DNA of 64,000 nucleotides. Origin: Streptomyces sp. HUAS 15-9. GTDB lineage: Bacteria > Actinomycetota > Actinomycetes > Streptomycetales > Streptomycetaceae. The notes under the pieces are model-generated. The model was not told the DNA's origin, did no database searches, and worked only from the letters and a program-made list of their open reading frames with translations. Location of the stretch: NCBI RefSeq assembly GCF_025642155.1, contig NZ_CP106798.1, positions 2,914,001 to 2,978,000 of the forward strand, read 5' to 3'. Positions 10,465 to 41,067 of the stretch are shown here, one piece after another. The position numbers and the translations under genes are program-made. Within the stretch, counting starts at the first letter, position 1, and every line of letters starts with the position of its first letter.

Positions 10465-10561
10465 AGTTCCCCGGCCCAGTGTACGGCGGTGGGGTACGCC
10501 CCGGGCAAGGCCGGTCATGCGCCTTCGTGCCCGTGGTGGCCGTCACGGATAGCGTCGCCGT

Positions 10562-11284: not shown

Positions 11285-11318
11285 GCGGGGGTACGGCGGT
11301 TCTCCTATCGTCATCCGA

Positions 11319-12128
11319 ATGCGCCAGTACTCGCCGGACCTGACCCCGCCCTGGAAGAAGCCCGAGCCGGTCCCGGAGGTCCCGGCGGACCCCGGTCTGG
11401 TGGTGGAGGAGCCCGGCACCGGCTTCTGCGGCGCGGTGATCCGCTGCGAGGCGGGCACGGTGACGCTGGAGGACCGCTTCGGCAAGCACCGGGTGTTCCC
11501 GCTGGAGCCGCGCGGCTTCCTGCTGGAGGGCAGGGTGGTGACACTGGTGAGGCCTTCGACAGCGCCGGTACGTCCCACCCGTACCGCTTCCGGCTCGGTC
11601 GCCGTCCCCGGCGCACGCGCGCGTGTCGCCCGCGCCGGCCGCATCTACGTCGAGGGCCGCCACGACGCGGAGCTGGTCGAGAAGGTGTGGGGCGACGACC
11701 TGCGCATCGAGGGCGTGGTCGTGGAGTACCTGGAGGGTGTGGACGACCTGCTGTCGATCGTGGCGGAGTTCGGGCCAGGGCCGGACGCGCGACTGGGTGT
11801 CCTGGTGGACCACCTGGTGCCGGGTACGAAGGAGTGGCGGCTCGCCGAGTCGGTGACGAGCGAGCACGCGCTGGTGGTGGGCCACCCGTACATCGACATC
11901 TGGGAGGCGGTGAAGCCGGCGTCCCTGGGGATCACGGGCTGGCCGCGCGTCCCGCACGGCCAGGACTGGAAGACGGGGGTGTGCCGGGCGCTGGGCTGGC
12001 CGGAGAACACGGGGGCGGCTTGGCAGGGGATTCTGTCTCGGGTGCGGTCCTACAAGGACCTGGAGCCGGAGTTGCTGGGGAGGGTGGAGGAACTGATCGA
12101 CTTCGTCACGGGTAGCGGTGGGGCCTGA
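11319..12128 (+). CDS. DUF3097 family protein
   Basis: 269 residues of an actinobacteria-restricted family I recognise from its layout after hrcA. Visible features: an N-terminal beta-rich domain, a TOPRIM-like core with [23 protein letters not shown] and [12 protein letters not shown], and a helical C-terminus. The TOPRIM-like acidic residues (E, D..D) suggest nucleic-acid or metal binding, but no activity is known to me. Start at 11319 follows the MBL stop closely. The 3' end overlaps the convergent Uma2 gene by 23 bp. Confidence 0.85.
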
Positions 12129-28132: not shown

Positions 28133-28276
28133 TCAGTCTCTCGCCACCCGCAGCCCTCCGTCCGCCCCGCCCGCCCCGACGACCGCGAGCGCCCCGTCCC
28201 GGTCCGTACGCAGCACCACCGCCCCTCCGGCACGCAGCGCCGCCACGGTGCCGGGCGCCGGGTGGCCGTACGGGTT
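28133..28276 (-). pseudogene. comEC: comEC, 3' remnant (last 47 codons)
   Basis: Reads NPYGHPAPGTVAALRAGGAVVLRTDRDG, the typical C-terminal end of the ComEC metallo-beta-lactamase domain, up to the TGA at 28133. The upstream part of the gene continues 9.1 kb away at 37378, where the sequence stops at CGADNP. Joining the two restores CGADNPYGHPAP in frame. The frame is cut at GGGTT (28272-28276), the left boundary of the island. Confidence 0.9.
28272..28276. other. attL core (GGGTT)
   Basis: Left junction. comEC sequence lies to the left (CCGTAC) and element sequence to the right, beginning TCCGAAGGGTC. GGGTT is the only run shared in phase with the right junction, so crossover occurred within it, most likely at TT (28275-28276). 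Confidence 0.8.
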
Positions 28277-28317
28277 TCCGAAGGGTCTTCGACTAGTAGT
28301 TCTAGGAGAGACCCAGC

Positions 28318-30045
28318 ATGGGGGCACCACCGCAGGTCAGAGGGGCCGCGCGTTCGACTCGCTCAACACCGCACGTGAACACTCAACTCAGGGGCGTGTC
28401 TGCGCTCCGGCTGTCCGTACTGACTGATGAGACCACTAGCCCCGAGCGCCAGCGGGAAGCCAACAGGGGTGCAGCCGCAGCGCTGGGAATCGACCTTGCT
28501 GACCGGGAAGCCGTAGACCTCGGAGTTAGTGCCAGCAAGACCACGCCCTTTGAGCGCCCGGAATTGGGCTCTTGGCTCCGGCGGCCGAATGACTTTGACG
28601 CACTGGTCTTCTGGCGATTCGATCGCGCCGTTCGGTCCATGGAAGACATGCACAACCTGGCTGCGTGGGCGCGCGAGCACCGCAAAATGATCGCATTCGC
28701 CGAGGGGCCGGGCGGTCGGCTGGTGCTCGACTTTCGTAACCCGCTCGACCCCATGGCTCAGCTCATGGTCACGCTATTCGCGTTCGCCGCGCAGATGGAG
28801 GCTCAGTCCATTCGCGAGCGTGTCACCGGCGCGCAGGCAGCAATGCGCGTCATGCCGCTTCGCTGGAGGGGTTCCCGCCCGCCTTATGGCTACGAGCCTG
28901 CGCCGCTCGACGGTGGCGGACACACGCTGGTGCAGGACCCGGAAGCCGTTGCAGTCCTGGAGCGCATCATCCGGGAACTCATGGGCGACCCCAGCAACGG
29001 CGTTCCCGGCAAGAGCCTTGCAGCCATAGCACGGGGCTTGAACGAGGACGGGATTCCGTCATCCCGCGACCATTGGAGCCTCAAGAAGGGACGGGAAACC
29101 GGCGGAAAGACAGGTGGCAAAGCCGGTGAGACGGTGGTTCGTGGGCGCTTCACATGGCGACACGGCGCCATCAAAGAACTGTTGACCTCTGAGCGCCTGT
29201 TGGGCTGGAAGGTCACCGACAGCAGGCCCGTACGGGACAGCGAAGGTACGCCCATCATGGCCACCACTGAGCCGATTCTCACCCGCGAGGAGTTCGACGC
29301 TATCGGCGCCGTTCTCGCCGAGCGCTCCGTGGATAACAAGCCAGCGGATCGTGTTGACACCGTCGCGCTCTTGCTCCGGGTCATTCACTGCGAAAGCTGC
29401 GGGGAGCGCATGTATCTGCACCGTCCGTCGGCCTCCAGCAAGAGCACCAGCAAGACGGAAACCTATAAGTGCGGCGCACATACCAGGGGTGGCAAGTGCG
29501 ATGCGCCGGCCATCATCAAACGCGAATGGGCCGAGGAGTACGCGGAGCGCGAGTTTCTGCGGATGCTCGGGGCACTTGAAGTCACGCAGACGCGCACCAT
29601 TCCCGGGTACGACCCTCAGCCGGAGATTGACGCCACCCTCGCTGAGTTCGAAGAGCACCAGGCGCAACAGGGGCGGCACAAGTCGAATGCAGCTAAGGCA
29701 GCGTGGCAGCGTCACGCAGATGCCCTTGACGCACGCCTCGCTGATCTGGAAGCGCGTGAGCGCGTGGAGCCCCGTACCGAGGAGATTCGGACTGGCAAGA
29801 CCTACGCAACGCTTTGGGCGAAAGCCGACACGGCAGGCAGGCGCCAACTAATGCAGGACGCTGGGGCGCACCTGAGCGTTAGCCGGGGTACGCGCGGCGG
29901 GTGGCGCAAGTTGGATGAGCGGCGCGTTGACTTCAGCGTTCGAGACCCGTTCTTTGCTGGGGCAGCGGGCGACATTGCGGCCGATTCCATCGAGCTTGCA
30001 GAGCTACTCGGCGACGCTGACGCAGGGCGGCAGGTGAACGCGTGA
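28318..30045 (+). CDS. int: Large serine recombinase (phage integrase)
   Basis: 575 residues. N-terminal resolvase domain with nucleophile Ser in ALRLSVLTDE (residue 33) and FWRFDRAVRS; a recombinase domain with PPYGYEPAP; a zinc ribbon CESCGERM...CGAHTRGGKC; a coiled coil; and a variable C-terminus. Such enzymes integrate at attB alone and need a directionality factor to excise. ATG at 28318 has AGGAGA 8 bp upstream; GTG codons at 28375 and 28396 are alternatives. Only about 40 bp separate the core from the start, so the integrated gene may have lost its own promoter, which could lie at the opposite end. Confidence 0.95.
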   Translation: MGAPPQVRGAARSTRSTPHVNTQLRGVSALRLSVLTDETTSPERQREANRGAAAALGIDLADREAVDLGVSASKTTPFERPELGSWLRRPNDFDALVFWRFDRAVRSMEDMHNLAAWAREHRKMIAFAEGPGGRLVLDFRNPLDPMAQLMVTLFAFAAQMEAQSIRERVTGAQAAMRVMPLRWRGSRPPYGYEPAPLDGGGHTLVQDPEAVAVLERIIRELMGDPSNGVPGKSLAAIARGLNEDGIPSSRDHWSLKKGRETGGKTGGKAGETVVRGRFTWRHGAIKELLTSERLLGWKVTDSRPVRDSEGTPIMATTEPILTREEFDAIGAVLAERSVDNKPADRVDTVALLLRVIHCESCGERMYLHRPSASSKSTSKTETYKCGAHTRGGKCDAPAIIKREWAEEYAEREFLRMLGALEVTQTRTIPGYDPQPEIDATLAEFEEHQAQQGRHKSNAAKAAWQRHADALDARLADLEARERVEPRTEEIRTGKTYATLWAKADTAGRRQLMQDAGAHLSVSRGTRGGWRKLDERRVDFSVRDPFFAGAAGDIAADSIELAELLGDADAGRQVNA

Positions 30046-30224
30046 ATACTTTCGATGCAGAGACGGAACGCGCCCTCGAATGGCGCCGGATCACACGCAC
30101 GCTCGGCGCTCTGTATGCCGCTCAGACGGCCGGAGATGACTCGGTCTACACCCGCCAGCGCATAGACCGGTTGGAGCGGCTGCAAGCGGCGCTGTGTGGC
30201 TTCCCCGAGGCGCTGGCCGGGTAG
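30042..30224 (+). CDS. Small protein coupled to the integrase (candidate directionality factor)
   Basis: 60 residues, GTG start overlapping the int stop by 4 bp (GTGA), so translationally coupled. Charged, helical, no cysteines: TERALEWRRITRTLGALYAAQ, ending CGFPEALAG. Followed at once by a GGCGC/GCGCC hairpin (30224-30237) that may end the transcript. Serine-integrase directionality factors are small, diverse and often nearby, but there is no homology evidence here. Confidence 0.6.
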   Translation: MNTFDAETERALEWRRITRTLGALYAAQTAGDDSVYTRQRIDRLERLQAALCGFPEALAG

Positions 30225-30587
30225 GCGCCTGAGCGCCGTTCTGCGCCCCGCTCGCTGGGTCCCTGGTGGATCTGGCGGGTGGGGCTCTCTGCTGTCCTCA
30301 CACGGGCGCTGAGCGGACAGGTAGGGCCGCGCGTTCGACCCGCTCAGGACCCATTGAGAGAGACACGTTCGCCGGAATGACCCACATGGTAAAGCATTGG
30401 CAAAGTCTGAAAATGCCGCAAAAGGTATGCGTGCAGGTCAGCGGGTTTTAGCCTTCCAGCGGTGTGCGTTCGACTCCCTCTCAGATAGGTAGAGACCCAC
30501 CTTGGCCGGTGGTCAGAGCAGAGCCTCAGTCATTGCGATTGGGGCTCTTGCTTTGCCCTGGCTCAGTAAGCAGAAGGAGGTAACACC
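30225..30587. other. 363-bp intergenic region with repeated GCGTTCGAC motifs
   Basis: No convincing gene; an open frame at 30266-30451 lacks a ribosome site. It holds two copies of a motif whose third copy is inside the 5' end of int: 28350-28364, 30331-30345 and 30466-30480, consensus GCGTTCGACYCSCTC. Copies one and two also share the preceding GGGCCGC. A/T-rich segments near 30380-30430 could carry promoters for the HTH gene. Confidence 0.55.
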
Positions 30588-30776
30588 ATGGACGAAATCA
30601 CAGAGCGCGTAAGGGCAGTTGGCGCCCGTCGAATGCGACTGCGCGACGAACTAGCGGCGGCTGAGGCTGAGTTGCACGAACTGATGCCCAGCGCAAAGGC
30701 ACGGATGACCCAAGAGGAAATCCGGCGCGTTACGGGGCTCAGCTTCCCAACCATCCGGCGCTACGCCACCCCCTGA
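30588..30776 (+). CDS. Small helix-turn-helix protein (possible excisionase/regulator)
   Basis: 62 residues: an N-terminal coiled coil (RVRAVGARRMRLRDELAAAEAELHELM) then a helix-turn-helix TQEEIRRVTGLSFPTIRRYA near the C-terminus. Very strong ribosome site GAAGGAGGT 6 bp before ATG. HTH-only proteins next to the integrase usually act as AlpA/Xis-type factors or early-gene activators. It heads the rightward primase operon. Confidence 0.75.
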   Translation: MDEITERVRAVGARRMRLRDELAAAEAELHELMPSAKARMTQEEIRRVTGLSFPTIRRYATP

Positions 30777-30817
30777 ACTACCGGCCAAGGTAGGAACCAA
30801 TGAAAGAGGAAACAGGC

Positions 30818-31078
30818 ATGAGCCACCAAATCCCAGACGTCCCCGCACGCCTAGTGAGCCCAGCGCACAAGGATGAGCACTGGACCTTCCGCATCAAGTG
30901 CCCCTACTGCCAGCGCACCCACATTCACGGCGCAGGACCTTCCGCCGCTGACGCTCACACGGCCTACGGTCACCGCGTAGCACACTGCGTAGATGTCTGG
31001 CGCAATGGGCGCCTGATCTACGATGCCAGCGCCAATCCGGGCCGCGTGTACAACCTCGTCCCGGCGGTGCAGCGATGA
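30818..31078 (+). CDS. Small zinc-binding-like protein of the mobile element
   Basis: 86 residues. CPYCQRTHIHGAG gives a Cys2/His2-type metal site, followed by AAHTAYGHRVAHC-like His/Cys residues. ATG at 30818 has GAGGAA upstream; ATG at 30800 also has a fair site (TAGGAA). The stop overlaps the primase start (ATGA). Similar small zinc proteins precede primases in actinobacterial elements; no function assigned. Confidence 0.72.
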   Translation: MSHQIPDVPARLVSPAHKDEHWTFRIKCPYCQRTHIHGAGPSAADAHTAYGHRVAHCVDVWRNGRLIYDASANPGRVYNLVPAVQR

Positions 31079-32715
31079 GCGAGCTTCACAACCTGGGCGA
31101 ATTCTTCCTGAGCGATGAGGGGAAGCTGTTCTATCCCGCCGAACCTGTTTCTGACATACTGTCAGGTACTGAGGTGCCCGAGCACAGCGAGGGCTACCGG
31201 GACAGCGACCTATCTGAGATCCACCTCGGCGAGCGCATTGCGCGTGAGTACCTCAGCGGAGAGTTCATCGCATGGGGTCGCAACGCGTGGTCCCGCTGGG
31301 ATGGCCGACGCTGGGCACGCTGCTCTGACTCCGCTGTGTTCGACGCTGTGAGGCGCGCAGTACTGCGCCTGTACGTCAGCGAGATAACGGCAACGAACGA
31401 GCGGCACAGCAAGGCTACGGCGGATGCTGCCAAACTCTCTGAAACGAGGGAGGAGGAGGGTAAGGCGGCACTATCAGCAGCGAATGCCATGCGGGACAGG
31501 CGCGTGAAGGAACTCAACGCCCTCCGTTTCGCTGGCAAGGTGGCGAGTCTTCAACGGGTAGCGCGCGGCGTACTGGAGCGTGACCAGGCTGATTTCGACG
31601 GACATCCCGACCTGTTGAACGTAGGCAATGGTGTGGTCAATCTCCGCACTGGGGAACTAGGCCCGCATGATCCGGCACTGCTGTTCACCAAGGTTACGGA
31701 AGTGGACTACAAGCCGGGATACACGCACCCTGACTGGGAAACCGCCCTCACTGCGCTGCCCGTTGAGGTGGCCGACTGGATGCAAATCCGTTTTGGCCAG
31801 GCAGCGACCGGATACGCCACTCAGGATGCTGTAGTTCCCTTCCTGCGGGGTGGCGGAGCCAACGGCAAGTCCACCATCCTCGATGGGGTGACCAACGCGC
31901 TGGGCGACTTCAGCGTGATGGTGCCAGACAAGGTGCTGCTGGCTTCCCCCAGCGATCACCCAACAGAGATGATGACGCTGTTCGGCGCGCGGTTCGCATA
32001 CATCGAGGAACTGCCCGAGGGTGACTACCTGAATGCCCAGCGGCTCAAGAAAGCTGCGGGAACCAGCAACATGACGGCCCGCTTCATCGGTCAGGACAAC
32101 GTCACTTGGGACGCCACGCATTCGCTGTTCGTCACCACGAACTACGAGGTGCAGGTAGACGCTGTGGACTACGGAACATGGCGCCGCCTTGCGCTGGTCA
32201 TGTTTCCGTTCACATTCGATGGCAGCGACCCGGAGCACCCCCGGGACCCAACCCTAAAGGAACGCATTCTTGCGGGTAAGGACGGACAGCATGAGGCCGC
32301 ATTGTCCTGGATCATCGATGGCGCGATTGCTTGGTACGACAGCGGAGAGGTAATCCCCCCGGCACCCGACAGCGTCAAGGCAGACACCACGCGCTGGAGG
32401 TATGAGGCCAATCACGCTGCGCGATTCCTGGACGAACACTATGAGCTTGACCAGGAAACGGCCGTGCGGTCCACCGATGTGTACACCCACTTTGCTCGCT
32501 GGGCTGAAGAGCGAGGTATCCGTAAGTGGGGAGAGCGACTGTTCTGGACACGAGCCCGGCAGCATGAGTGGTTCATCACCGGTGAGGTCGAGAAACAGGA
32601 CAGCAGCGTGCGCACCAGCGGATGGGACGTGCAATGCCCGGACGGTGTACTCACTGAGCACCAGGTGAAGAGCCGTGAGCGACTCGTAACCGGGCTACGC
32701 CCCACAGCGGGGTAG
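31075..32715 (+). CDS. P4/D5-type primase-helicase (SF3 helicase)
   Basis: 546 residues. The C-terminal half is an SF3 helicase: Walker A GGGANGKST near residue 260, Walker B-like FAYIEELPEGD, sensor FVTTNYEVQVDAVDYGTWRRL. The N-terminal part has the D5_N-type helical region (DLLNVGNGVVNLRTGELGPHDP). Phage satellites and small phages use this enzyme for their own theta replication. The start overlaps the preceding gene; a large inverted repeat follows the stop, a likely replication origin. Confidence 0.93.
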   Translation: MSELHNLGEFFLSDEGKLFYPAEPVSDILSGTEVPEHSEGYRDSDLSEIHLGERIAREYLSGEFIAWGRNAWSRWDGRRWARCSDSAVFDAVRRAVLRLYVSEITATNERHSKATADAAKLSETREEEGKAALSAANAMRDRRVKELNALRFAGKVASLQRVARGVLERDQADFDGHPDLLNVGNGVVNLRTGELGPHDPALLFTKVTEVDYKPGYTHPDWETALTALPVEVADWMQIRFGQAATGYATQDAVVPFLRGGGANGKSTILDGVTNALGDFSVMVPDKVLLASPSDHPTEMMTLFGARFAYIEELPEGDYLNAQRLKKAAGTSNMTARFIGQDNVTWDATHSLFVTTNYEVQVDAVDYGTWRRLALVMFPFTFDGSDPEHPRDPTLKERILAGKDGQHEAALSWIIDGAIAWYDSGEVIPPAPDSVKADTTRWRYEANHAARFLDEHYELDQETAVRSTDVYTHFARWAEERGIRKWGERLFWTRARQHEWFITGEVEKQDSSVRTSGWDVQCPDGVLTEHQVKSRERLVTGLRPTAG

Positions 32716-32738
32716 GTCGATTCGTCATGCGTCCCCTT

Positions 32739-32810
32739 GTCCCGGGGTGTTGAGGTCGTTCTAGGGATTTTTTTTCAATCCCTATAGGAACGGCCTAGGT
32801 ACCCCGGGAC
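32739..32810. repeat. Nested inverted repeat after the primase gene (candidate origin or terminator)
   Basis: Outer arms GTCCCGGGGT and ACCCCGGGAC are perfect 10-mers. Inside them CGTTCTAGGGATT (32757-32769) pairs with AATCCCTATAGGAACG (32777-32792) with a small bulge, around an AT-rich loop TTTTTTC. The whole folds into one long hairpin with an A/T-rich tip. Its position directly after the helicase suggests an origin; as RNA it could also terminate the primase transcript. Apart from this and the nearby palindrome, 32716-33009 shows no gene. Confidence 0.7.
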
Positions 32811-32869
32811 ACCCGAACAGCTACCCACCCATCCGCCGTCTCCTTTGCCTGATCAACCCGCACACCACC

Positions 32870-32883
32870 TACGAACTTTCGTA
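32870..32883. promoter_or_regulatory. Palindrome TACGAACTTTCGTA, copy 1
   Basis: Perfect dyad TACGAA-CT-TTCGTA upstream of the small-gene operon beginning at 33010. An identical copy precedes the TerS-like operon at 34858, and the following bases are also alike (GTGGTTCC versus GTGCTTCC). A shared operator for an element-encoded repressor is likely. Confidence 0.65.
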
Positions 32884-33009
32884 TGTGGTTCCTGCCCGCT
32901 CGACCAGCGCACATGCGAACCGCCACCCCTCGCCGGCCCGGATATACCCGCTGGTCACGGCCCTGCGCCCCGTTCCTGCCACCCATCCCGCTCTGCAAAC
33001 GGAGTACAC

Positions 33010-33084
33010 ATGCTGCTCGCCATCCTCAACACGTTCGCGCTGTTCTGCGCACTGGCCAGCGTCGCTATTTACACCACCCGATAG
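33010..33084 (+). CDS. 24-residue single-span membrane peptide
   Basis: MLLAILNTFALFCALASVAIYTTR: one transmembrane segment with a short positive tail. GGAG lies 5 bp before the ATG. Despite its size the frame, ribosome site and tight spacing to the next gene (9 bp) support expression. Function unknown; such peptides occur in phage and plasmid regions as membrane modulators. Confidence 0.5.
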   Translation: MLLAILNTFALFCALASVAIYTTR

Positions 33085-33093
33085 GAACCCACC

Positions 33094-33300
33094 ATGACCG
33101 AGATTGCACCGCCCCCGCGCCCTGTCCGCGAACGGCACCTGATTTCGGACCTGATCGAAAAGGTGGGGCGTGATCTGCTCGCGCAGGACAACCCGAGTAA
33201 CGAGGCAATCGGCGTTTTCGCCGACCTGATACAGGCGCACGCTGACCTGCTCGCGGCCCGTACTGGCTCCCTGGCGAACTTTTACGCCAGCCGGGGGTAA
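33094..33300 (+). CDS. Small hypothetical protein
   Basis: 68 residues, helical, no membrane segment: RHLISDLIEKVGRDLLAQ and DLIQAHADLLAARTG. ATAGGAA precedes the ATG. It is part of the close-packed rightward run after the first TACGAACTTTCGTA site. Family not recognised. Confidence 0.65.
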   Translation: MTEIAPPPRPVRERHLISDLIEKVGRDLLAQDNPSNEAIGVFADLIQAHADLLAARTGSLANFYASRG

Positions 33301-33304
33301 TCCC

Positions 33305-33562
33305 GTGCTCTACGCCCTATCGCTGGCTCACGCTGCCATTTACAGCGCCGACGATGCACCGACCAATGGCGCCCCGTTTATGTGCCCGCGCTGCCTGTCC
33401 CGTGTGACCCTGCGTCATACCCCGCACCAGCGGCCGCACTGGACTCACGGACCGACTCATACCGGCGCTTGTGCCCTGCGCCGAGATGCTGTTTCGGGCC
33501 CCGGCTACGTCAAGCGCACTGCCCACGAGATTGACATCTATGCGCCGACCGGCGCCAACTGA
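33305..33562 (+). CDS. Small zinc-finger protein resembling the CoiA N-terminus
   Basis: 85 residues from a GTG. FMCPRCLSRVTLR followed by HWTHGPTHTGACAL forms a Cys2-His2/Cys site. The pattern CPxC, about 20 residues, then HxxH is reminiscent of the CoiA-family N-terminal zinc domain, although the nuclease part of CoiA is absent. The start is weak (no clear SD) but only 4 bp separate it from the preceding stop, which suggests coupling. Confidence 0.6.
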   Translation: MLYALSLAHAAIYSADDAPTNGAPFMCPRCLSRVTLRHTPHQRPHWTHGPTHTGACALRRDAVSGPGYVKRTAHEIDIYAPTGAN

Positions 33563-33576
33563 AAAGGAAGCTGCAC

Positions 33577-34398
33577 ATGTCTGATCCCATCCTTAGCCTG
33601 CCGCCGAATAGCTACCTGCCCAAGTCCGTTCACGCTGAGGCGGATACCTGGCGCGCTGCAAACGACAACGTGATCCGTCTTCAGCGCGAGGGGCGTGAAC
33701 TTGCGGGCGCGCTCCACGCTGCCAAGCTGCGCGACGCTGAGGAGTTCAAGGCTGCTGTCCTGGCTGGCAAGACCCCCGGCAGTGCGGATGCGCATGAGCG
33801 GGAAATTCTCGCGAAGCTGCACAGCGTCGAGCAGGCTCTACTCATCGCCAAGGATGCCCGCTATCGGGCCGGTACTGCGCTGACTGTGGCGCTGCGCTCT
33901 GAGGCGGTACGCCGCCACCTGTACGGCGCTGTGAAGGCCGCATTCGATCCTGCCTACGCCGACTACCTGGCAGCGCTCAGCGAGGCTGAGACGGCAGTCA
34001 ATGCCGCCCATAAGCGTCTGGTCGATTCGACGGCTGCTGTCAGCGTGCTGAAGGCTCTGACCACAGGCACTCCGGTTGCCGTGCTTCCGCTTGCTGCCGG
34101 TTCTCCCCCGGCGTTCGGTGCTGCTCGTGCTGCTGTTGCGGACATTCCCGCCGTGCTTGATTCGCTGGGCGCGTGGGATCTCCCGGACAGGGAGACGGTC
34201 AGGTACGGCGGTGACCCGGCCAAGGATGGCGTGCCCCCATTGCAGCGTCGTGTGAAGCTGCGCAATGGGCGGGTGGTGTCCGTCACGCGAGATTTTGCTG
34301 CCGGTCTTGTCAAGGCTGACGAAATCGCGGAGTACCTCGATGGCTACCCGGCCGAGGAGCCAGCGGAATACCCGATTTCGCTGCCTGACGCCCTGTAG
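33577..34398 (+). CDS. Alanine-rich helical protein of unknown function
   Basis: 273 residues. Long helical/coiled-coil N-terminal two thirds (AEADTWRAANDNVIRLQREGRELAGALHAAK and a second helix pair around 110-160), then a Pro-rich hinge and a charged C-terminal domain. GGAAG precedes the ATG. Elongated helical proteins occupy scaffold or tape positions in phages, but no motif proves this. A GC-rich hairpin follows the stop, separating it from the duplicated-motif gene. Confidence 0.68.
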   Translation: MSDPILSLPPNSYLPKSVHAEADTWRAANDNVIRLQREGRELAGALHAAKLRDAEEFKAAVLAGKTPGSADAHEREILAKLHSVEQALLIAKDARYRAGTALTVALRSEAVRRHLYGAVKAAFDPAYADYLAALSEAETAVNAAHKRLVDSTAAVSVLKALTTGTPVAVLPLAAGSPPAFGAARAAVADIPAVLDSLGAWDLPDRETVRYGGDPAKDGVPPLQRRVKLRNGRVVSVTRDFAAGLVKADEIAEYLDGYPAEEPAEYPISLPDAL

Positions 34399-34411
34399 TA
34401 CGCGCTGAACT

Positions 34412-34442
34412 GGGGTCACCTGGCTGCGCGCCGGGTGGCCCC
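34412..34442 (+). terminator. GC-rich hairpin between two element genes
   Basis: GGGGTCACCTGG can pair with CCGGGTGGCCCC (G-U pairs allowed) around CTGCGCG. No T run. It may attenuate transcription or protect the upstream mRNA end. Confidence 0.45.
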
Positions 34443-34468
34443 CGTACGTGCCTGACCCTGGAGATCAC

Positions 34469-34798
34469 ATGCCTGACCCACACGAGCAGATCAGCCGCAA
34501 TGAACTAGCGCAGCTTTCGCCTGCTGAGATTGTGGCAGCGAAGCGAGAGGGGCGCCTGAATGCCCTTATGGGCGTCCCTGGTGCTGCCTTTGAGGACCCT
34601 GTCATGCGCCGGCCGGACGGGCGAGAAATGGCCCCGGAAGCGGCAGATGCCATCCGGCGTAAGGCTGCCCGCGATGCTGCCGAACGGCTCACAGACGGCA
34701 CGCGACAGCTAACGCGCGAGGAACTCGACGGCATGGTGCCCGAGGAAATCGTCAAGGCCAAGCAGGAGGGGCGCCTAGACGCTCTCCTGGCCGTCTGA
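34469..34798 (+). CDS. Protein with duplicated EL-(M/L)-P-EIV-AK-EGRL motif
   Basis: 109 residues. Two copies of one motif: ELAQLSPAEIVAAKREGRL (near residues 11-29) and ELDGMVPEEIVKAKQEGRL at the C-terminus, followed by DALLAV. ATG at 34469 has GGAG 6 bp upstream, preferred to a GTG at 34448. From memory, this C-terminal motif recurs in actinophage proteins encoded near the capsid gene, so it may be a capsid- or scaffold-binding tag; that link is unverified. Followed by a strong terminator. Confidence 0.72.
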   Translation: MPDPHEQISRNELAQLSPAEIVAAKREGRLNALMGVPGAAFEDPVMRRPDGREMAPEAADAIRRKAARDAAERLTDGTRQLTREELDGMVPEEIVKAKQEGRLDALLAV

Positions 34799-34825
34799 GC
34801 GCCGAGTAGCGCACCCCCTGAATGT

Positions 34826-34850
34826 GGGCCCTGAGCGATTCTCAGGGCCC
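34826..34850 (+). terminator. Strong hairpin terminator
   Basis: Perfect arms GGGCCCTGAG and CTCAGGGCCC around a 5-base loop, 28 bp after the stop of the duplicated-motif gene and followed by CTTGCCTT. It ends the middle operon of the element. Confidence 0.75.
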
Positions 34851-34857
34851 CTTGCCT

Positions 34858-34871
34858 TACGAACTTTCGTA
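34858..34871. promoter_or_regulatory. Palindrome TACGAACTTTCGTA, copy 2
   Basis: Identical to copy 1 and placed just after the terminator, at the start of the 338-bp leader of the TerS-like operon. Two identical sites ahead of two operons point to co-regulation. Confidence 0.65.
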
Positions 34872-35004
34872 CGTGCTTCCGCCCACCACTCACGCGAGAC
34901 GGCACGCAACCAGCCTGGTGGTTGGAACGATCGCGGAGTGTAACCGCCGGCTGTGTCACCTTGCGTAGTGTCCCGCATGTCCGATTCGGGCGGTACGGGT
35001 GGGG

Positions 35005-35062
35005 GTGCACCCTTTGACCCCTAACCCCTCTTGAACGCCTCGGAGGGCGGTCAGGGGTGCAC
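35005..35062. repeat. Inverted repeat in the leader of the TerS-like operon
   Basis: GTGCACCCTTTGACC pairs with the complement of GGTCAGGGGTGCAC, leaving one mismatch/bulge and a loop of about 29 bases. It precedes an A-rich segment and two GTGTTC copies, then a strong ribosome site (GGAGGT) for the TerS-like gene. It may be an operator, an attenuator or a pac-like site. No gene is seen in 34799-35136. Confidence 0.5.
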
Positions 35063-35136
35063 TCGGGGAAAAATACGCAGCGTGTTCAAAAACCCGTGTT
35101 CGCAATGAATCCGTAATCGATAGGAGGTAACTCACC

Positions 35137-35481
35137 GTGGCCAATTCTGAGAACCTGCGTCGTGGCCGTTCTGCCCCTGGCCAGCGACGCACAACCCTAC
35201 CCGCTGAGTGCACCCTGCCCGTTCCCCTGCCACCTGCCCGCGCGGAATCCTGGACCGATGACCAGATAGCCCGGTGGGCCGAATTGTGGCGTGGCCCGTC
35301 AGCGACGCTATGGGACGACGCTTGCCGGGGAATGGTCGCGCTGCTCGTAGAGCTAGAGGCACTGGGAACCAGCGTGAATGCCGCCCAGCTAACCGAGGTG
35401 CGCCGCATTTCCGAGACTCTCCTACTCACCCCCGGTTCGCTTGCTGCCGCCGGTTACGCGCTGGAAGGGTGGCCCGCCTAA
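35137..35481 (+). CDS. Phage terminase small-subunit-like protein
   Basis: 114 residues. The pattern QRRTTLPAE at the N-terminus, then WAELWRGPSATLWDD, and finally EVRRISETLLLTPGSL is that of actinophage TerS proteins as I remember them (LPAEG ... LW-PQA-W ... E-R---LGLTP). GTG start with GGAGGT 8 bp upstream. TerS recognises phage pac/cos DNA; satellites carry their own to redirect the helper's large terminase. No large subunit is present. Alternative: a unique small DNA-binding protein. Identification needs a profile search. Confidence 0.6.
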   Translation: MANSENLRRGRSAPGQRRTTLPAECTLPVPLPPARAESWTDDQIARWAELWRGPSATLWDDACRGMVALLVELEALGTSVNAAQLTEVRRISETLLLTPGSLAAAGYALEGWPA

Positions 35482-35663
35482 TGAGCCAGTCACGACGTCG
35501 AGCAGCCTCAGCGCAGCAGAGTGCGCCGCAATCCGCCGAGAATCGCCCTGCTTTCGGCCCGTGGCCCGAGGGTGATGTGTCCGGCTGGTCTATCTGTGAG
35601 CGTCACGATTTCGGCGTGCAGCCTGATACGTCCTGCCTGCGCTGCCGAGTGGAGGGTTCCTGA
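35481..35663 (+). CDS. Small Cys-rich protein of the mobile element
   Basis: 60 residues; the ATG overlaps the TerS-like stop by 1 base (TAATG). N-terminal half basic and Gln/Ser-rich; C-terminal ICERHDFGVQPDTSCLRCRV holds a C-x2-H...C-x2-C putative zinc site. The next gene starts on its stop codon, so it is cotranslated. No family recognised. Confidence 0.65.
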   Translation: MSQSRRRAASAQQSAPQSAENRPAFGPWPEGDVSGWSICERHDFGVQPDTSCLRCRVEGS

Positions 35664-35920
35664 TGACCCGTCAGGTGACGCTCAGACTCAGCGACGAACA
35701 CGCCGAGATTCTCGACCGGCTAGCTCACGGCGGACGCAACGCGAATGAGACTCTGCGCGCTGCCCTGGTGGCCTATGACGCCCTCTGCCGTGATGCTCAC
35801 GCACTGCGCGCTGTGGGGGCCCCTGGTGGCCTGATTCAGGTTGAGACTCACCTCAGCGCCGAGGGATTCACGTTCGAGCACAAGAGGCCGCTTGTCGGCC
35901 GGAAGGATGAGACAGCGTGA
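35663..35920 (+). CDS. Ribbon-helix-helix-like DNA-binding protein
   Basis: 85 residues. TRQVTLRLSDEHAEILDRLAHGGRNANETLRAAL fits the beta-strand/two-helix RHH fold (CopG/Arc type), with an extra C-terminal part of about 40 residues. Overlaps the previous stop (TGATG) and the next GTG start. Could bind one of the palindromes in the element; target unknown. Confidence 0.68.
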   Translation: MTRQVTLRLSDEHAEILDRLAHGGRNANETLRAALVAYDALCRDAHALRAVGAPGGLIQVETHLSAEGFTFEHKRPLVGRKDETA

Positions 35921-36069
35921 CAAGAGTCCGAGTGAGACTCACGGATGAAGAGTTGGCGGAGATGCTGACTCTGGCCAGCGAAATGGAACTGAGCCCAAAC
36001 CTCGTTATGAAGACTGCACTTGCGCTGCTTGCTGCCGACTGGTGTGCATCGCGCTGTGCACCTGCCTGA
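35917..36069 (+). CDS. Second small ribbon-helix-helix-like protein
   Basis: 50 residues from a GTG overlapping the preceding stop by 4 bp: TRVRVRLTDEELAEMLTLAS then LSPNLVMKTALALLA. Same strand-helix-helix arrangement as its neighbour, suggesting an ancient duplication. The overlapping start makes expression credible despite its length. Confidence 0.6.
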   Translation: MTRVRVRLTDEELAEMLTLASEMELSPNLVMKTALALLAADWCASRCAPA

Positions 36070-36150
36070 GGGCGCGTAACGGCCCCCGTGGCCGCCGACT
36101 ACCCGAGTTGGGTGTTCAGCGGCTACAGGGGCCGTTCTGGCGTTTCTGGG

Positions 36151-36480
36151 CTACGCCCTCATGTCTCGCATCGTTGCGCCAATGTCTCGCCCTGCCTCGC
36201 CGTACGCCAGGAGATCAGGGGCCGGGTTGTTGGCAACGCCCCGCGCAGCAACCTGGATCACCTCACCGAGGGACTCAACTACCCGCGTGAGTACGAAGGT
36301 TGCTTCATCAGCGCTGAGGGTTCCTCCGTCCACCATGGCGGAAGCAAGGCTGTGCCATGCCGTGGCCGACTCCAGCGCGAACACGTCGGCTGCTTTCTCC
36401 AGCGCCCCGCCTGGTTCCGTGAGGGCGTACGCCGTCTTCCCCGTCGCTGGGTCGCTGCCCAAGGGCCGTAGTCTCTCCAT
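36151..36480 (-). CDS. Small leftward protein A of the element's right end
   Basis: 109 residues: RLRPLGSDPATGKTAYALTEPGGALEKAADVFALES, helical with no membrane segment; ends GRDIGATMRDMRA. Start 36480 chosen because the hairpin/SD block just upstream is identical to that of gene B. Divergent from the GntR gene across an array of CCACGG repeats. PICI-like islands often carry accessory or defence genes at this end; nothing specific is recognisable here. Confidence 0.65.
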   Translation of the reverse strand: MERLRPLGSDPATGKTAYALTEPGGALEKAADVFALESATAWHSLASAMVDGGTLSADEATFVLTRVVESLGEVIQVAARGVANNPAPDLLAYGEAGRDIGATMRDMRA

Positions 36481-36481
36481 G

Positions 36482-36500
36482 CCGACTCCAATCCAGTCGG
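36482..36500 (-). promoter_or_regulatory. RBS-sequestering hairpin, copy 1 (leader of gene A)
   Basis: On the mRNA, CCGACT-GGATTGG-AGTCGG forms a 6-bp stem; the SD (GGAG) spans loop and 3' stem, and the AUG follows one base after the hairpin. The same sequence stands before gene B. A candidate translational operator or thermosensor. Confidence 0.6.
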
Positions 36501-36562
36501 TAGGCCCCTGCCTCGCTGTTCTCGCCAGTCCAGCGGAGCGGGGGCCGCTTTCTGTTGCGGAT

Positions 36563-36622
36563 ACACCACGGTACGCCACGGATAACCACGCTGGGCCATG
36601 GTCTGCAAATGCGCGCCACGGT
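36563..36622. repeat. 10-bp-phased CCACGG array between gene A and GntR
   Basis: CCACGG-like hexamers start at 36566, 36576, 36586 (CCACGC), 36596 (CCATGG) and 36616; the slot at 36606 is not conserved. Exactly one helical turn apart, so all face one side of the DNA. The location between divergent genes suggests cooperative repressor binding, most simply by the adjacent GntR protein. Confidence 0.75.
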
Positions 36623-36643
36623 GGACCGGGCGAACCTGGTCGT

Positions 36644-36862
36644 ATGGCTGAGTACGAATGGCAGCGAGTAGCCCGAGCGATCTCCGCTGATATTGAGTCG
36701 GGACGCATCCCCCCTGGCGCTGCCCTGCCGTCGATCCTGCGTCTTGCCCAGCAATACGGCGTGGCTGATCACACAGTGCGGCGTGCGCTGAGGGAGCTGC
36801 GGGAACAGGGGCGTATCGAGACCCTGCCGCACAAGGGGTCGTTTGTGGTCGAGCAGCAGTAA
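36644..36862 (+). CDS. GntR-family winged-helix regulator (DNA-binding domain only)
   Basis: 72 residues: complete GntR winged helix (ARAISADIESGRIPPGAALPS, AQQYGVADHTVRRALRELREQGRIETLPHKGSFVV) with no effector domain. KorSA-type stand-alone GntR repressors regulate actinobacterial integrative elements. ATG at 36644 lies 22 bp from the CCACGG array, predicting autoregulation and control of gene A. Upstream in-frame extension back to 36161 is rejected because it overlaps gene A and the operator array. Confidence 0.82.
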   Translation: MAEYEWQRVARAISADIESGRIPPGAALPSILRLAQQYGVADHTVRRALRELREQGRIETLPHKGSFVVEQQ

Positions 36863-36912
36863 GGCCCAACCCCTGCCGCCTGGCGAGAATCGGGCCCCTG
36901 TGTGACTTCTGG

Positions 36913-37176
36913 TCAGCGCTGGCTCAGAGCCGCGCGCAAGGCTTCTTCCAGTGCCCTTGCCACCGGAGCGTTGAGCCGTTCCCCGCGCATTTCCGCCACG
37001 CCGACAACGTCCTGTACGGCACCGGCCAACTTGCGGACCAGGAGGCAGAGATCATCGCGTGAGACTTCCGGGCGCAGCGCCATGGTCAGTGCGTAGGCGG
37101 CATCGTTGCGCGCCGCTCGGATGATGTGGGTTTCCGCGTACTCCGGTGTCTCGTCCGTGACGCTAGGCTCCGTCAT
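36913..37176 (-). CDS. Small leftward protein B of the element's right end
   Basis: 87 residues: TEPSVTDETPEYAETHIIRAARNDAAYALTMALRP, then helical to LEEALRAALSQR. It shares with protein A the same 25-bp leader and a vague helical pattern (V-R-L-G-V-VVGVAE versus V-SLGEVIQVAA), so they may be distant paralogues. Convergent with GntR. Function unknown. Confidence 0.65.
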   Translation of the reverse strand: MTEPSVTDETPEYAETHIIRAARNDAAYALTMALRPEVSRDDLCLLVRKLAGAVQDVVGVAEMRGERLNAPVARALEEALRAALSQR

Positions 37177-37177
37177 G

Positions 37178-37196
37178 CCGACTCCAATCCAGTCGG
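37178..37196 (-). promoter_or_regulatory. RBS-sequestering hairpin, copy 2 (leader of gene B)
   Basis: Identical to the gene A copy through start codon, stem, loop and a few bases beyond (GTCGGTA on the plus strand), although the coding sequences themselves differ. Conservation of leader but not of gene argues for function as an RNA or DNA site. Confidence 0.6.
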
Positions 37197-37353
37197 TAAG
37201 CCCCGGTGCGGAAGCCTTCACCCTTCCCGCCGGGGCACTGCTTTTCTGGCCTGTTCAGGCTATGCCGGTAACTGCCCGCTCGGGCGCGCGAGTTCGGGCG
37301 CTGACGACACCCTTCCCGACGTCGATTCGCCGCTCTGACCAGGGACTTTGTGG

Positions 37354-37359
37354 TATAAC
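37354..37359 (+). promoter_or_regulatory. -10-like box TATAAC reading out of the right end
   Basis: TGGTATAAC is preceded by TTTG and lies 19 bp inside the right core. No good -35 is visible. In the integrated form it points into comEC; in the circle it would face the integrase start about 60 bp away. Confidence 0.4.
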
Positions 37360-37377
37360 TGGAAGTCACGACCCTTT

Positions 37378-37382
37378 GGGTT
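37378..37382. other. attR core (GGGTT)
   Basis: Right junction. Element sequence ends AGTCACGACCCTTT before the core; comEC resumes with GTCCGCACC. Together with attL the reconstructed attP has arms GACCCTT and AAGGGTC equally spaced around a central TT, the symmetry expected for serine-integrase sites. Confidence 0.8.
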
Positions 37383-39858
37383 GTCCGCACCGCACGAGAT
37401 CAGCGCCAGCCGCGGGGCCGCCAGACGTATCAGGTCCGGATCCTGGTAGGCCGAACCGTGATGGGCGACCTTGAGCACATCCACACCGCCCAGCTCGGCT
37501 GCCGTCGGCGATCTCAACAGCGCCTGCTGGGACGGGGGTTCGAGGTCCCCGAGAAGGAGCATCCGCAGCCCGGCCGAGCGCACGAGCATCGCCACGCTCG
37601 CGTCGTTGGGGCCGTCCGGATCAGGGACCGCCGAGCTCGGCGGCGGCCACAGCACCTGCCAGGACAGCCCACCGGTGCGCCCCTCCTCCCCGGCGACGGC
37701 ATGGGTGAGCCGAATGTGCCGCCGCGCCGCCTCCCTGCGTACGAACTCGGCCTGGTCCGCGGGCTCCTCGAAGCCGGTCGTCTCGATCGCGCCCACCGCA
37801 CGCCCCCGCAGCACACCGGGCAGTCCCGTGACGTGATCCGCGTGGAAGTGGGTCAGCACCACGAGCGGGATCCGGGTGATGCCGAGCTCCCGCAGACAGT
37901 CGTCGACCAGCGCCGGATCGGGTCCGGCGTCCACGACCACCCCCGTGCCCTCCCCCGCCGCCAGCACCGTCGCGTCCCCCTGTCCCACGTCGCACATCGC
38001 GAACCGCCAGCCCGGTGGCGGCCAGCCCGTGATCACCCGGGTCAGCGGTGCCGGCCGCACCACCACGAGCAGAAGCAGAGCCCCGCACACGGCGCACCAC
38101 CACAGGTGCCGCAGCAGCCGTCGGCCGACACACACCAGGACCACCGTGGCCACGGCGAGCATCAGCGCCCCCGGCCAGCTGCCCGGCCAGTCCACTCCCG
38201 CGCCCGGCAGCGCGGCCCCGGCCCGGGCCACCCCGGCGATCCATCCGGCAGGCCAACTCGCGCACCACGCCAGCGCCTTGGCCACCGGTATCGCCACCGG
38301 TGCCGACCCGAGCGCCGCGAACCCGAGCACCGTGGCCGGTGCGACCGCCGCCTCGGCGAGCAGATTGCAGGGCACCGCCACCAGGCTCACCCGCGCCGAC
38401 AGCACGGCGACCACCGGCGCGCACACGGCCTGCGCCGCGGCGGCCGCCGCCAGCGCCTCGGCCAACTCCCGGGCACCCGGCGCCGCCGCAGCGCCGCGCT
38501 CCAGCCCGGCGCGAGCACCAGCAGCGAGCCGGTGGCCAGCACCGAGAGCAGGAACCCGTAACTACGGGCCAGCCACGGGTCGTACAGCACCAGCAGCAGG
38601 ATGGCCGTCGCCAGCGCCGGGACCAGCGATCTGCGGCGTCCCGTCGCCAGGGCGAGCAGCGCCACCGATCCGCAGGCCGCGGCCCGCAGCACGCTCGGGT
38701 CCGGCCGGCACACGACGACGAACCCGGTCGTGAGCGCCGCCGCGAGGAGCGCGGTGGCCCGCAGCGAGATGCCGAGGCGCGGGGCGATCCCGCGGCGCTC
38801 CACGCGCTGGGCCAGGCCGGGCGGTCCGAGGAGCAGGGCGAGCAGGATCGTGAGGTTGCTGCCGGAGACAGCGAGCGTGTGCGCCAGGTCCGTCTCCTTG
38901 AACGCCTCGTCCAGCTCGGGCGTGATCCGTGAGGTGTCCCCGACGACCAGCCCCGGAAGCAGCGCACGGGCATCCGCCGACAGCCCGTCGGTGGCCTCGC
39001 GCAGCCCGGCCCGCAACCGTCCCGCCAGCCGCTGCGGCCCGCTCGGCCCCGCCACGATCTCCGGCACCTGCCGCGCTGTGACCCGCAGCACGGCCGCGGT
39101 CCGGTCCCCGCTCGTCATCACGGGCGCCAGCCGCGCGCTCACCCGCAGCCGGGTCGTGGGCAACAGCCCGAGCCAGGCCGAACGCCCCTGGGGCCGGGCC
39201 GAGGCGGTTCGGGCCGCCGACTCCGGTGGGGGGACATCGCCGTCGACGATCATCAGCACCGGTGTCCGCGTCGTCACGGCCGTCCCGTCGGTCTCCTCGA
39301 CGCTCCGCACCTCCGCGTGGATCAGGACGGCAAGCGGAGCCACGTGATCCCCTCTCACCCGGGGCCTGCTCAGCCAGGGATCGGAGCCGAGTTCGACCTC
39401 GGCGGTCACAGTGGCGTACTGCCGGGCCAGCACGGGCACGGGCCCGCGACGCAGATCCGCTCCATGCAGCCCAGCGGAGACGGCGGCCGCAGCGACGCAG
39501 AGCAATACGGCGGCCGACGCGGTACGCGACAGGGGCCGCACCCAGGCGGACCATGCCCTCGTCGGTGCGGGCAGGGGAGCCGCCCGGTCGTCCGTGTGGC
39601 GTCGTCCGCCCGGTCGTCCGCGTCTTCCCGACGCCAGGAGGAGGCACGCTGTGATCAGGCATGCGGCCACGAGGGCGGCGATCCGGGCGGGCGGCGTGTC
39701 GAGCGTCAGCGCCGCCGTCGCCCAGGCCGCGAGCGCGGGCGGTACCAGGCGCAGGTCCGTCGGGCCTTCCTGCCGCGGGTGCGCGGCGCCCAGCCGTTTT
39801 CCTGAGGCGGCGTGCACATCCACCCGGCCGGTACTGCTGCGGTCGCCGGACACCTGGC

Positions 39859-39862
<4 letters not shown>
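37378..39862 (-). pseudogene. comEC: comEC, 5' part, disrupted by island and by a frameshift
   Basis: Competence/DNA-uptake channel ComEC/Rec2. From ATG 39862 (overlapping the comEA stop by 4 bp) the frame runs through the membrane competence domain (VSGSNLTILLALL, TGFVVVC) but at about 38470-38495 the coding frame shifts: the upstream frame ends in Arg-rich junk while the next frame continues APGARELAEALAAA and the MBL domain (DVGQGDATVL, THFHADHVTG, VAHHGSAYQ). The shift lies in a GCG/CGG run, so an assembly error is possible. The island then removes the last 47 codons, which lie at 28133-28276. Intact length would be about 875 residues. Confidence 0.88.

Positions 39863-41067
<1,205 letters not shown>

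Follow-up and report, generated by a model that had tools for sequence, protein, structure and literature searches.

A probable phage satellite in the comEC gene of Streptomyces sp. HUAS 15-9 carries a doubled head-scaffold tail and a cos-like site

A stretch of 64,000 nucleotides from the chromosome of Streptomyces sp. HUAS 15-9 (assembly GCF_025642155.1, contig NZ_CP106798.1, positions 2,914,001 to 2,978,000; hereafter the window) contains an intact island of 9,106 bp inserted in comEC. We found that this island is probably (roughly 80%) an integrated satellite that parasitises phages of the Dubu and phiSASD1 kind, by which it would be induced and packaged. A satellite is the best reading because the island encodes a stand-alone tail of a phage head scaffold, contains a cos-like region, and shows covariation between its terminase small subunit (TerS) and the sequence adjoining the cos-like core.

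Overall architecture and integration site of the island

The island is bounded by direct repeats of GGGTT at both outer ends (positions are those of the window unless a locus is named; loci in other genomes carry L or P numbers).

28272..28276, unstranded: attL core GGGTT, left junction in comEC; the repeat recurs at 37378-37382
37378..37382, unstranded: attR core GGGTT, right junction in comEC; repeat

Read across the repeats, attP has the inverted arms GACCCTT/AAGGGTC, and the comEC frame ...LISCGADNPYGHPAPGTVAALR is regained once the flanks are joined. An uninterrupted comEC-type site was present in 9 of 26 related genomes (at most 2 mismatches), and 6 of these 9 sites translated into the same ComEC stretch; genome G013 had no uninterrupted site of the joined-flank form at the same tolerance. 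The Competence and metallo-beta-lactamase domains of comEC lie to the right of the island, and the GC content is 63.5% in the island and 70-71% in the 20-kb flanks. From left to right, the island consists of a serine integrase, a helix-turn-helix (HTH) protein, a small protein, a primase-helicase, a palindrome, small genes, o9 and o10, followed by the remnant of an HNH nuclease gene, the cos-like site, o11, small DNA-binding-like genes, and two leftward genes with a GntR protein. The called genes are all open except for the HNH remnant, and the element ends are clean. A sequence-only reading of this DNA had placed the ends at 28272 and 37382, which proved to be the outer ends of the repeats, and the integrase, HTH protein, primase-helicase, origin candidate, TerS-like gene and GntR protein that it listed were recovered as family matches or, for the origin, as the palindrome; o10, the cos-like region and the HNH remnant were absent from it.

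As a separate observation, the Competence domain in the right part of comEC is split over two overlapping frames (38387-40576 and 37260-38465, within 37260-40576). This two-frame arrangement is a frameshift or a sequencing error, in addition to the insertion.

A stand-alone protein with two head-scaffold tails

34469..34798, + strand: o10, 109 aa, two copies of the scaffold C-terminal tail (phrog_2592, head scaffolding, 6.5e-13; alternative GTG start at 34448)

The o10 protein matched phrog_2592 in two stretches, the best of which covered the last ~35 of the 209 profile positions. The repeated unit is ~30 residues long and corresponds to the C-terminal end of actinophage head scaffolds. A model of the tail unit built from 25 rows, applied with a threshold of E 0.01, had matches in 34 of the 392 Streptomyces genomes, and in the host genome it recovered the two o10 copies at 3.1e-17 and 3.0e-16; no scaffold of the phrog_2592 kind other than o10 was found there. 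When an alignment of o10 and its homologues was used to search IMG/VR, 28 loci were obtained, many of them near-identical copies. The tail unit ends an open reading frame (ORF) of 180-343 aa in 27 of the 28, with L095 cut by the contig end, and the gene after the scaffold encodes a major head protein (phrog_267) in all six cases scanned.

The tail occurs in two settings in Streptomyces, as evident from the classification of 26 loci (L148-L173; L174-L177 and several matches without a locus were left out). In 18 of them, the tail lies in a frame of 185-533 aa with a capsid match starting within ~80 nt, and no o11-type TerS was found in the ~1.5-kb flanks. The other eight, including the window, are stand-alone tails in frames of 41-172 aa with no capsid match, and six of these eight have an o11-type TerS within ~0.9 kb (L151, L153 and L160 are closely related islands). 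Double tail copies were also observed in L126, L178, P0001, P0003 and P0004, and weakly in L034, while P0002 is o10 itself, called at a shorter length. No match to o10 was obtained by tblastn in the phage collection; the link of o10 and o11 to phages was reached through profiles and the relative L123.

We infer that o10 may act as a competitor in capsid assembly, its tails binding the capsid protein of the helper. The closest parallel is CpmB of the Staphylococcus aureus pathogenicity island (SaPI) SaPI1, which has a C-terminal RIIK motif in common with the 80alpha scaffold, binds the capsid protein and competes for it (PMC5644958). This likeness is one of design, and no sequence kinship is claimed. 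CpmB is described as a dimer with one tail per chain (PMC5644958), whereas o10 has two tails per chain, so that the doubled tail could stand in for dimerisation. In a variant of the satellite reading, o10 would be a pure inhibitor, a decoy in helper capsid assembly, and multimers of the island would fill full-size shells. A pair of scaffold tails lacking the scaffold body has the look of a competitor; a tetramer of the 9.1-kb island would measure 36.4 kb, close to the phage genome lengths of 37.1-39.5 kb; and all the packaged DNA of EcCICFT073, a cos-type phage-inducible chromosomal island (PICI), is described as phage-sized (PMC6092414). In SaPI1, however, the same kind of mimic redirects capsid size, beyond blocking (PMC5644958), and we regard the pure decoy as possible, though doubtful.

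A cos-like site of the Dubu and phiSASD1 type

34884..34943, + strand: HNH gene remnant, the last 19 codons (HHSRETARNQPGGWNDRGV) and stop; the Dubu right end encodes the same tail
35033..35048, + strand: cosN-like core GAACGCCTCGGAGGGC, aligning with the phage junction GAACGCGGGGGAGGGC at 13/16 bases

The region between o10 and o11 matches the joined genome ends of the Streptomyces phages Dubu and phiSASD1. In particular, 44 of the 50 bases at 34881-34930 are identical to the Dubu right end, and a complete HNH relative is present in L002 (phrog_144, HNH, 4.1e-17). Within the element, GAACGCCTCGGAGGGC is the best match to the 18-base core, with 4 mismatches against 5 in the runner-up, and TerS follows the core at a similar distance in the island and the phages. 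The Dubu record starts with GGGCTCTGCCC and ends with CGCGGGGGA, and the phiSASD1 record starts with CGCGGGGGAGGGCTCTGCCC; because the two records open the same junction nine bases apart, the termini are read as cohesive ends, which both phages appear to have.

Compared with dinucleotide shuffles of the same stretch, the window scored 70 against Dubu and 53 against phiSASD1, and 0/500 shuffles were as good. A cos match was found in 10 of 15 island stretches, comprising the window and nine related islands in other Streptomyces (L120, L121, L122, L126, L178, L127, L136, L033 and L002); apart from the comparison of L002 with Dubu, 0/500 shuffles were as good for these ten against both phages. Over the ten islands, the best core match ranged from 14 to 21 of 23 bases.

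The terminase small subunit and the adjoining sequence

35049..35136, + strand: island-type cosB candidate (putative TerS site), common to L120, L121 and L122 and unlike the phages
35137..35481, + strand: o11, 114 aa, terminase small subunit-like (Terminase_7, family hidden Markov model, structural-model neighbours)

The earlier assignment of o11 as TerS-like was borne out from several sides. Of its 25 database homologues (identity 56-91%), 18 are 82-91% identical and two carry a precomputed PF25673 match, and the relatives in L123 and L126 exceed the Pfam cut-off that applies to Terminase_7. The family hidden Markov model (HMM) recognised Dubu gp1 with 18.8 bits (E 3.2e-7) and phiSASD1 gp21 with 18.0 bits (E 6e-7), the E-values referring to a set of six phage proteins; both genes lie directly upstream of the gene for the large terminase subunit (TerL). 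The AlphaFold2 (AF2) model of o11 had a mean predicted local distance difference test (pLDDT) of 85.7; among viral models, terminase small subunits or similar proteins occupied ranks 3-7 (E 0.039-0.29, none below 0.001), and the two top neighbours are unnamed or uncharacterised. No match to o11 was found by tblastn in the phage collection, and viral contigs compared with the alignment of TerS proteins yielded 67 matches to the pattern, none of them a relative. The o11-type TerS occurs in 21 of 392 Streptomyces genomes, at 23 places, and at 17 such places tblastn found no TerL or portal of the Dubu/phiSASD1 type. Additionally, o11 matched phrog_226, labelled minor tail protein, at 4.4e-8; this label seems wrong, as the sequence matches suggest that the family contains terminase small subunits. 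The Dubu gene at 90-557 (L146) is likewise annotated as a minor tail protein, yet it adjoins TerL upstream and matches the TerS family model.

The sequence strictly behind the 23-base core was compared separately, using 1000 dinucleotide shuffles. L120, L121 and L122, which have an o11-type TerS, matched the window there with scores of 111, 105 and 35 (0/1000 shuffles each), and these three and the window did not match the phages (their scores were reached by 24 to 378 of 1000 shuffles). With the end of the core included, L120 slightly exceeded its shuffle maximum in the phage comparison; once the comparison began strictly behind the core, 80 and 24 of 1000 shuffles did as well, and the excess was gone. 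L178 and L002 showed the opposite pattern: they matched the two phages (39 and 67 for L178, 26 and 35 for L002; 0/1000 each), neither matched the window, and neither had an o11-type TerS or any TerS recognised among the downstream proteins scanned. The remaining four islands matched neither type; L033 carries a TerS of another family (phrog_1496, 1.4e-13), and L126, L127 and L136 carry a diverged TerS. Phage-type sequence was present in 2/2 islands without a recognised TerS and in 0/8 with one, which a post hoc Fisher's exact test puts at 1 in 45. This covariation fits a TerS that binds beside cosN.

Related islands and the prophage alternative

The related islands have approximately the same order, that is, integrase, HTH, primase, o9-like, TerS, ribbon-helix-helix (RHH)-like and GntR genes, with some members missing, and they occupy other sites. 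L120 (2039-12809) splits a Mg-chelatase-like gene, presumably of the YifB/ComM type, both halves of which flank the island; this target and comEC are two genes with names linked to DNA uptake. L002 adjoins a DsbA-like gene, and L033 adjoins a short piece of a type II/IV secretion ATPase. The o9-o10-TerS order is repeated in L126, and L123-L125 combine a 391-aa integrase of another type (tyrosine by eye) with a single-tail protein and TerS.

Some relatives carry other head parts. Behind the island TerS of L122, positions 10471-11379 encode a protein that shares 84% identity with the Dubu head maturation protease across 302 aa. A capsid protein like that of phiSASD1 lies near TerS in L128, L131 and L135 (phrog_267 for L128), and in L128 the capsid homologue is immediately preceded by a protein of 116 aa that resembles part of a scaffold (phrog_4708). 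We also observed that L129 (3838-17427) and L134 (11331-15761) have a serine-type integrase match, TerS and a tape-measure protein of 1,582 or 1,476 aa; L129 additionally has a capsid protein (phrog_29) and a peptidase domain of the M23 type. No TerL match was obtained in either with the Dubu/phiSASD1 proteins, and they may be small prophages, or else satellites that bring along a tail-length gene. A 52-residue match between the Dubu portal and a 72-residue excisionase-like ORF of L124 was taken as chance.

The island might instead be a decayed prophage, the outcome of a Dubu-like phage having integrated and then shed the bulk of its structural genes, so that the integrase, primase, scaffold end, cos and TerS are what remains. 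The cos-like site, TerS and HNH remnant do point to phage ancestry, the HNH gene of the window is broken, and the scaffold tail stems from a phage gene. However, islands inserted elsewhere, with other integrases, show the same kind of gene order and size, the tail is a small double-copy gene in several related islands, and 18 of the 25 o11 homologues are 82-91% identical, whereas the phage TerS proteins are only distantly alike. The open genes and clean ends likewise argue against decay, and we consider this origin unlikely.

Taken more widely, there is about an even chance that the island represents a broad Streptomyces family of cos-type satellites, many with serine integrases, in which the Dubu/phiSASD1-type cutting site is kept, TerS and its adjoining binding sequence are exchanged, and capsid assembly is attacked through borrowed head parts. 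These parts would be single or covalently doubled scaffold tails, a capsid-protein homologue, or the maturation protease of the helper itself.

Absent phage and transfer genes

Apart from the integrase (575 aa) and the primase (546 aa), the largest ORF of the island in any frame is 273 aa, so that no TerL, portal, tape-measure or FtsK gene of normal size fits. TerL, portal, tail and FtsK genes were not found in the island, in agreement with the earlier claim that it has no capsid, tail, large terminase or FtsK gene. In the window and 20 loci (relatives and candidates), tblastn with TerL and portal of Dubu and phiSASD1 gave 0/21 matches, where a diverged TerL could be missed outside the window, while the same proteins do find prophage L180 by blastp; homologues confined to complete prophages, the case that the sequence-only reading had named against itself, were not seen. 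PICIs have no phage structural or lytic genes, and the same was found here, o10 being a scaffold tail only. The own capsid, portal and TerL of capsid-forming PICIs (PMC10690885) are lacking.

Actinomycete integrative elements, too, have integrases, genes for replication and regulators of the GntR type, which raises the alternative of an actinomycete integrative and conjugative element (AICE) or an integrative and mobilisable element moving by conjugation or mobilisation. AICEs are defined by an FtsK-like Tra protein, which the island lacks; no FtsK/Tra or relaxase family matched among the island proteins scanned with Pfam and PHROG, and the 273-aa limit on other ORFs stands against it as well. 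Such an element would also leave the cos-like site, TerS and scaffold tail unexplained, and we consider it highly improbable.

Integration, replication and regulatory genes

28318..30045, + strand: large serine integrase (Resolvase PF00239, 9.7e-18; Recombinase PF07508, 3.7e-13; PF13408; phrog_95 integrase, 5.3e-83)
30042..30224, + strand: o2, 60 aa; relatives behind the integrase in L121 (63% over 54 aa) and L002 (38% over 45 aa); no PHROG match
30588..30776, + strand: o3, 62 aa, HTH protein (phrog_686, HTH DNA-binding, 5.6e-6; identity 64% to L120, 54% to L002, 49% to L033)
30800..31078, + strand: o4, 92 aa, directly 5' of the primase gene (83% in L033, 73% in L002)
31075..32715, + strand: P4/D5-type primase-helicase (D5_N PF08706, 1.1e-21; phrog_1156 DNA primase, 6.7e-74)
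32738..32811, unstranded: candidate replication origin, an imperfect 24-nt inverted repeat with an A/T-rich centre (palindrome behind the primase gene)
33094..33300, + strand: o7, 68 aa (75% over 59 aa in L120)
33305..33562, + strand: o8, 85 aa, CoiA N-terminal-like zinc protein (PF25164, 4.4e-6)
33577..34398, + strand: o9, 273 aa, long-helix protein, at the same place in related islands
35481..35663, + strand: o12, 60 aa, CxxH/CxxC small protein behind TerS, by sequence; no PHROG match
35663..35920, + strand: o13, 85 aa, weakly RHH-like (RHH_1 0.059 only; 43% over 81 aa in L002)
35917..36069, + strand: o14, 50 aa, RHH-like by eye (41% over 39 aa in L120; neither Pfam nor PHROG match)
36151..36480, - strand: o15, 109 aa (37% over 79 aa in L033; hairpin at 36482)
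36644..36862, + strand: o16, 72 aa, GntR winged-HTH (PF00392, 1.2e-16), candidate master regulator
36913..37176, - strand: o17, 87 aa (44% over 50 aa in L033; hairpin at 37178)

The primase is 83% identical to that of L033 and 81% to that of L002 (Streptomyces sp. ISL-1). Primase matches occurred in 126 of 392 Streptomyces genomes, mostly at ~30% identity among the matches listed, and only the best were used. The palindrome is kept directly behind the primase gene in L033 and L002, while the DNA beyond it is not kept; by its position it is a candidate origin, which would give the island the primase with adjoining origin that is a feature of PICIs.

The o9 protein is 40% identical to its counterpart in L126 and 21-26% identical to those in L178, L120 and L121. 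Its AF2 model (mean pLDDT 69.5) showed helices at residues 16-62, 72-106 and 109-163. No family reached the cut-off in the PHROG, Pfam and defence-family scans, and the protein database returned only o9 itself among the 7,995 scored candidates sharing most words. A Sid-like or scaffold-like role for the long helices was weighed and found unsupported. Eight island proteins compared with defence-system families gave no match.

Two repeated elements were also noticed. Identical 19-nt hairpins CCGACTCCAATCCAGTCGG (CCGACT..AGTCGG) lie at 36482-36500 and 37178-37196, just 5' of o15 and o17, and the dyad ACGAACTTTCGT at 32871 and 34859 brackets the o7-o10 segment; neither was found in seven related loci.

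Comparison with known satellites

P4-like satellites are defined by a P4-type primase-helicase and by core genes such as psu, delta and sid. On the first point, the island protein matched D5_N and phage primase families; on the second, no PHROG match so named occurred among the proteins scanned, and no dedicated search was made. By its sequence, the island appears to work like a PICI, a likeness of design for which no descent is claimed. PICIs are typically ~15 kb, larger than the island, and are further described by unique attachment sites never occupied by prophages, island-exclusive genes, phage-dependent induction, specific packaging and high-frequency transfer (PMC6092414). With SaPI1 and the pac SaPIs the island has in common an integrase, a replication module, its own TerS and a small scaffold-tail mimic (PMC5644958, PMC5052747); it differs in its serine integrase, a cos-like site instead of pac, the tail present twice per chain and the size of 9.1 kb.

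Phage HNH nucleases reportedly play a role in cos SaPIs. Like the island, SaPIbov4 and SaPIbov5 have a helper-type cos, and they are packaged by cos phages (PMC5052747). They are described as keeping only the 3' part of terS (PMC5052747), whereas the island has its own TerS and a scaffold mimic. SaPIbov5 remodels shells with the capsid-protein homologue Ccm (PMC8569155); the window island has no such protein, but L128, L131 and L135 carry the capsid homologue noted above.

Among actinobacterial elements, the candidate Mycobacterium PICIs and phiRv1/phiRv2 are likewise integrase-bearing, and one of the four candidates is drawn with a serine integrase (PMC10654092). The novelty that the sequence-only reading attached to a serine-integrase satellite in an actinomycete is therefore already taken in print, while its description of a PICI-like phage satellite is upheld in design and in apparent helper dependence. 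The Mycobacterium candidates are defined by a major capsid gene (PMC10654092), which the island lacks. MulchRoom and MiniFlayer are also phage satellites of Streptomyces, but they have their own capsid, portal and both terminase subunits and are described with no primase, and MulchRoom has a tyrosine integrase (PMC10690885). Small (<15 kb) actinobacterial prophage-like elements have been suggested to include PICIs (PMC10023795). Dubu and phiSASD1 themselves are complete phages of 39.5 and 37.1 kb; their likeness to the island in cos-like ends, TerS relative and o10-type scaffold tail contrasts with only distant similarity elsewhere (the integrase, for Dubu, and the primase). In the open-licence literature searched, we came across no account of this family of islands, nor of any satellite from Streptomyces that encodes a scaffold tail on its own.

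Proposed cycle and its weighing

In both Dubu and phiSASD1, a relative of TerS adjoins TerL and the scaffold carries an o10-type tail, which makes such phages the likely helpers. On entry of a helper, the island regulator (GntR or HTH proteins) would yield, and the serine integrase would excise a circle carrying the attP read from the repeats. The primase-helicase would replicate this circle from the palindrome behind its gene, after which the helper TerL and HNH nuclease would cut the island at its helper-type cosN. By binding its own sequence beside cosN, the island TerS would turn the helper packaging motor to island DNA. Meanwhile, o10 would compete with the helper scaffold for capsid protein, leading either to small shells, as with SaPI1 CpmB, or to poisoned helper assembly; both outcomes fit. 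Tails and lysis would be supplied by the helper.

Several points weigh against a satellite of this kind. The case is built from sequence, and induction, excision, replication and packaging are predictions of it. At the cos-like site, the window core differs from the phage core at 3/16 bases and matches 16/23 with flanks, deviations by which the site may be weak or retuned, and only a remnant of the HNH gene is left. The cohesive ends of Dubu and phiSASD1 are deduced from record termini, and P1312, a phage with a portal that gave a 24% match to phiSASD1, is reported as headful (PMC4569894). L123, L128, L129, L130 and L132 (5/15) have no cos match, for L123 with 43 and 173 of 500 shuffles as good, so that some TerS-bearing islands lie outside the scheme; for L002, 5/500 shuffles equalled the score against Dubu (0/500 against phiSASD1). 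The o11 match to Terminase_7 (0.0096) is under the curated Pfam cut-off, the link to phage TerS amounts to only 18-19 bits, and the o11 model had no PDB match at E 0.001, HK97 TerS ranking 15 and 29 (E 2.9 and 5.1). Two of the eight stand-alone tails (L164 and L173) have no nearby o11-type TerS. Finally, searches of the host genome, run without a positive control, yielded neither a capsid nor a TerL gene of the Dubu type; as no such capsid or TerL, and no such scaffold besides o10, was found there, the helper would come from outside.

Significance

The literature searched contains very little on satellites of the classical kind, without a capsid, that exploit actinobacterial phages. In this island, a likely helper group, a packaging site, a specificity switch made up of TerS and cosB, and a factor for capsid assembly can all be read from the sequence, which brings the entire piracy cycle within reach of tests in ordinary laboratory strains of Streptomyces. 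Capsid hijacking by scaffold mimicry, as in the staphylococcal islands, is thereby suggested to extend to a second phylum of bacteria, where the tail is doubled. If this is true, the doubled scaffold tail in each chain would be a new way of doing the job of the CpmB dimer.

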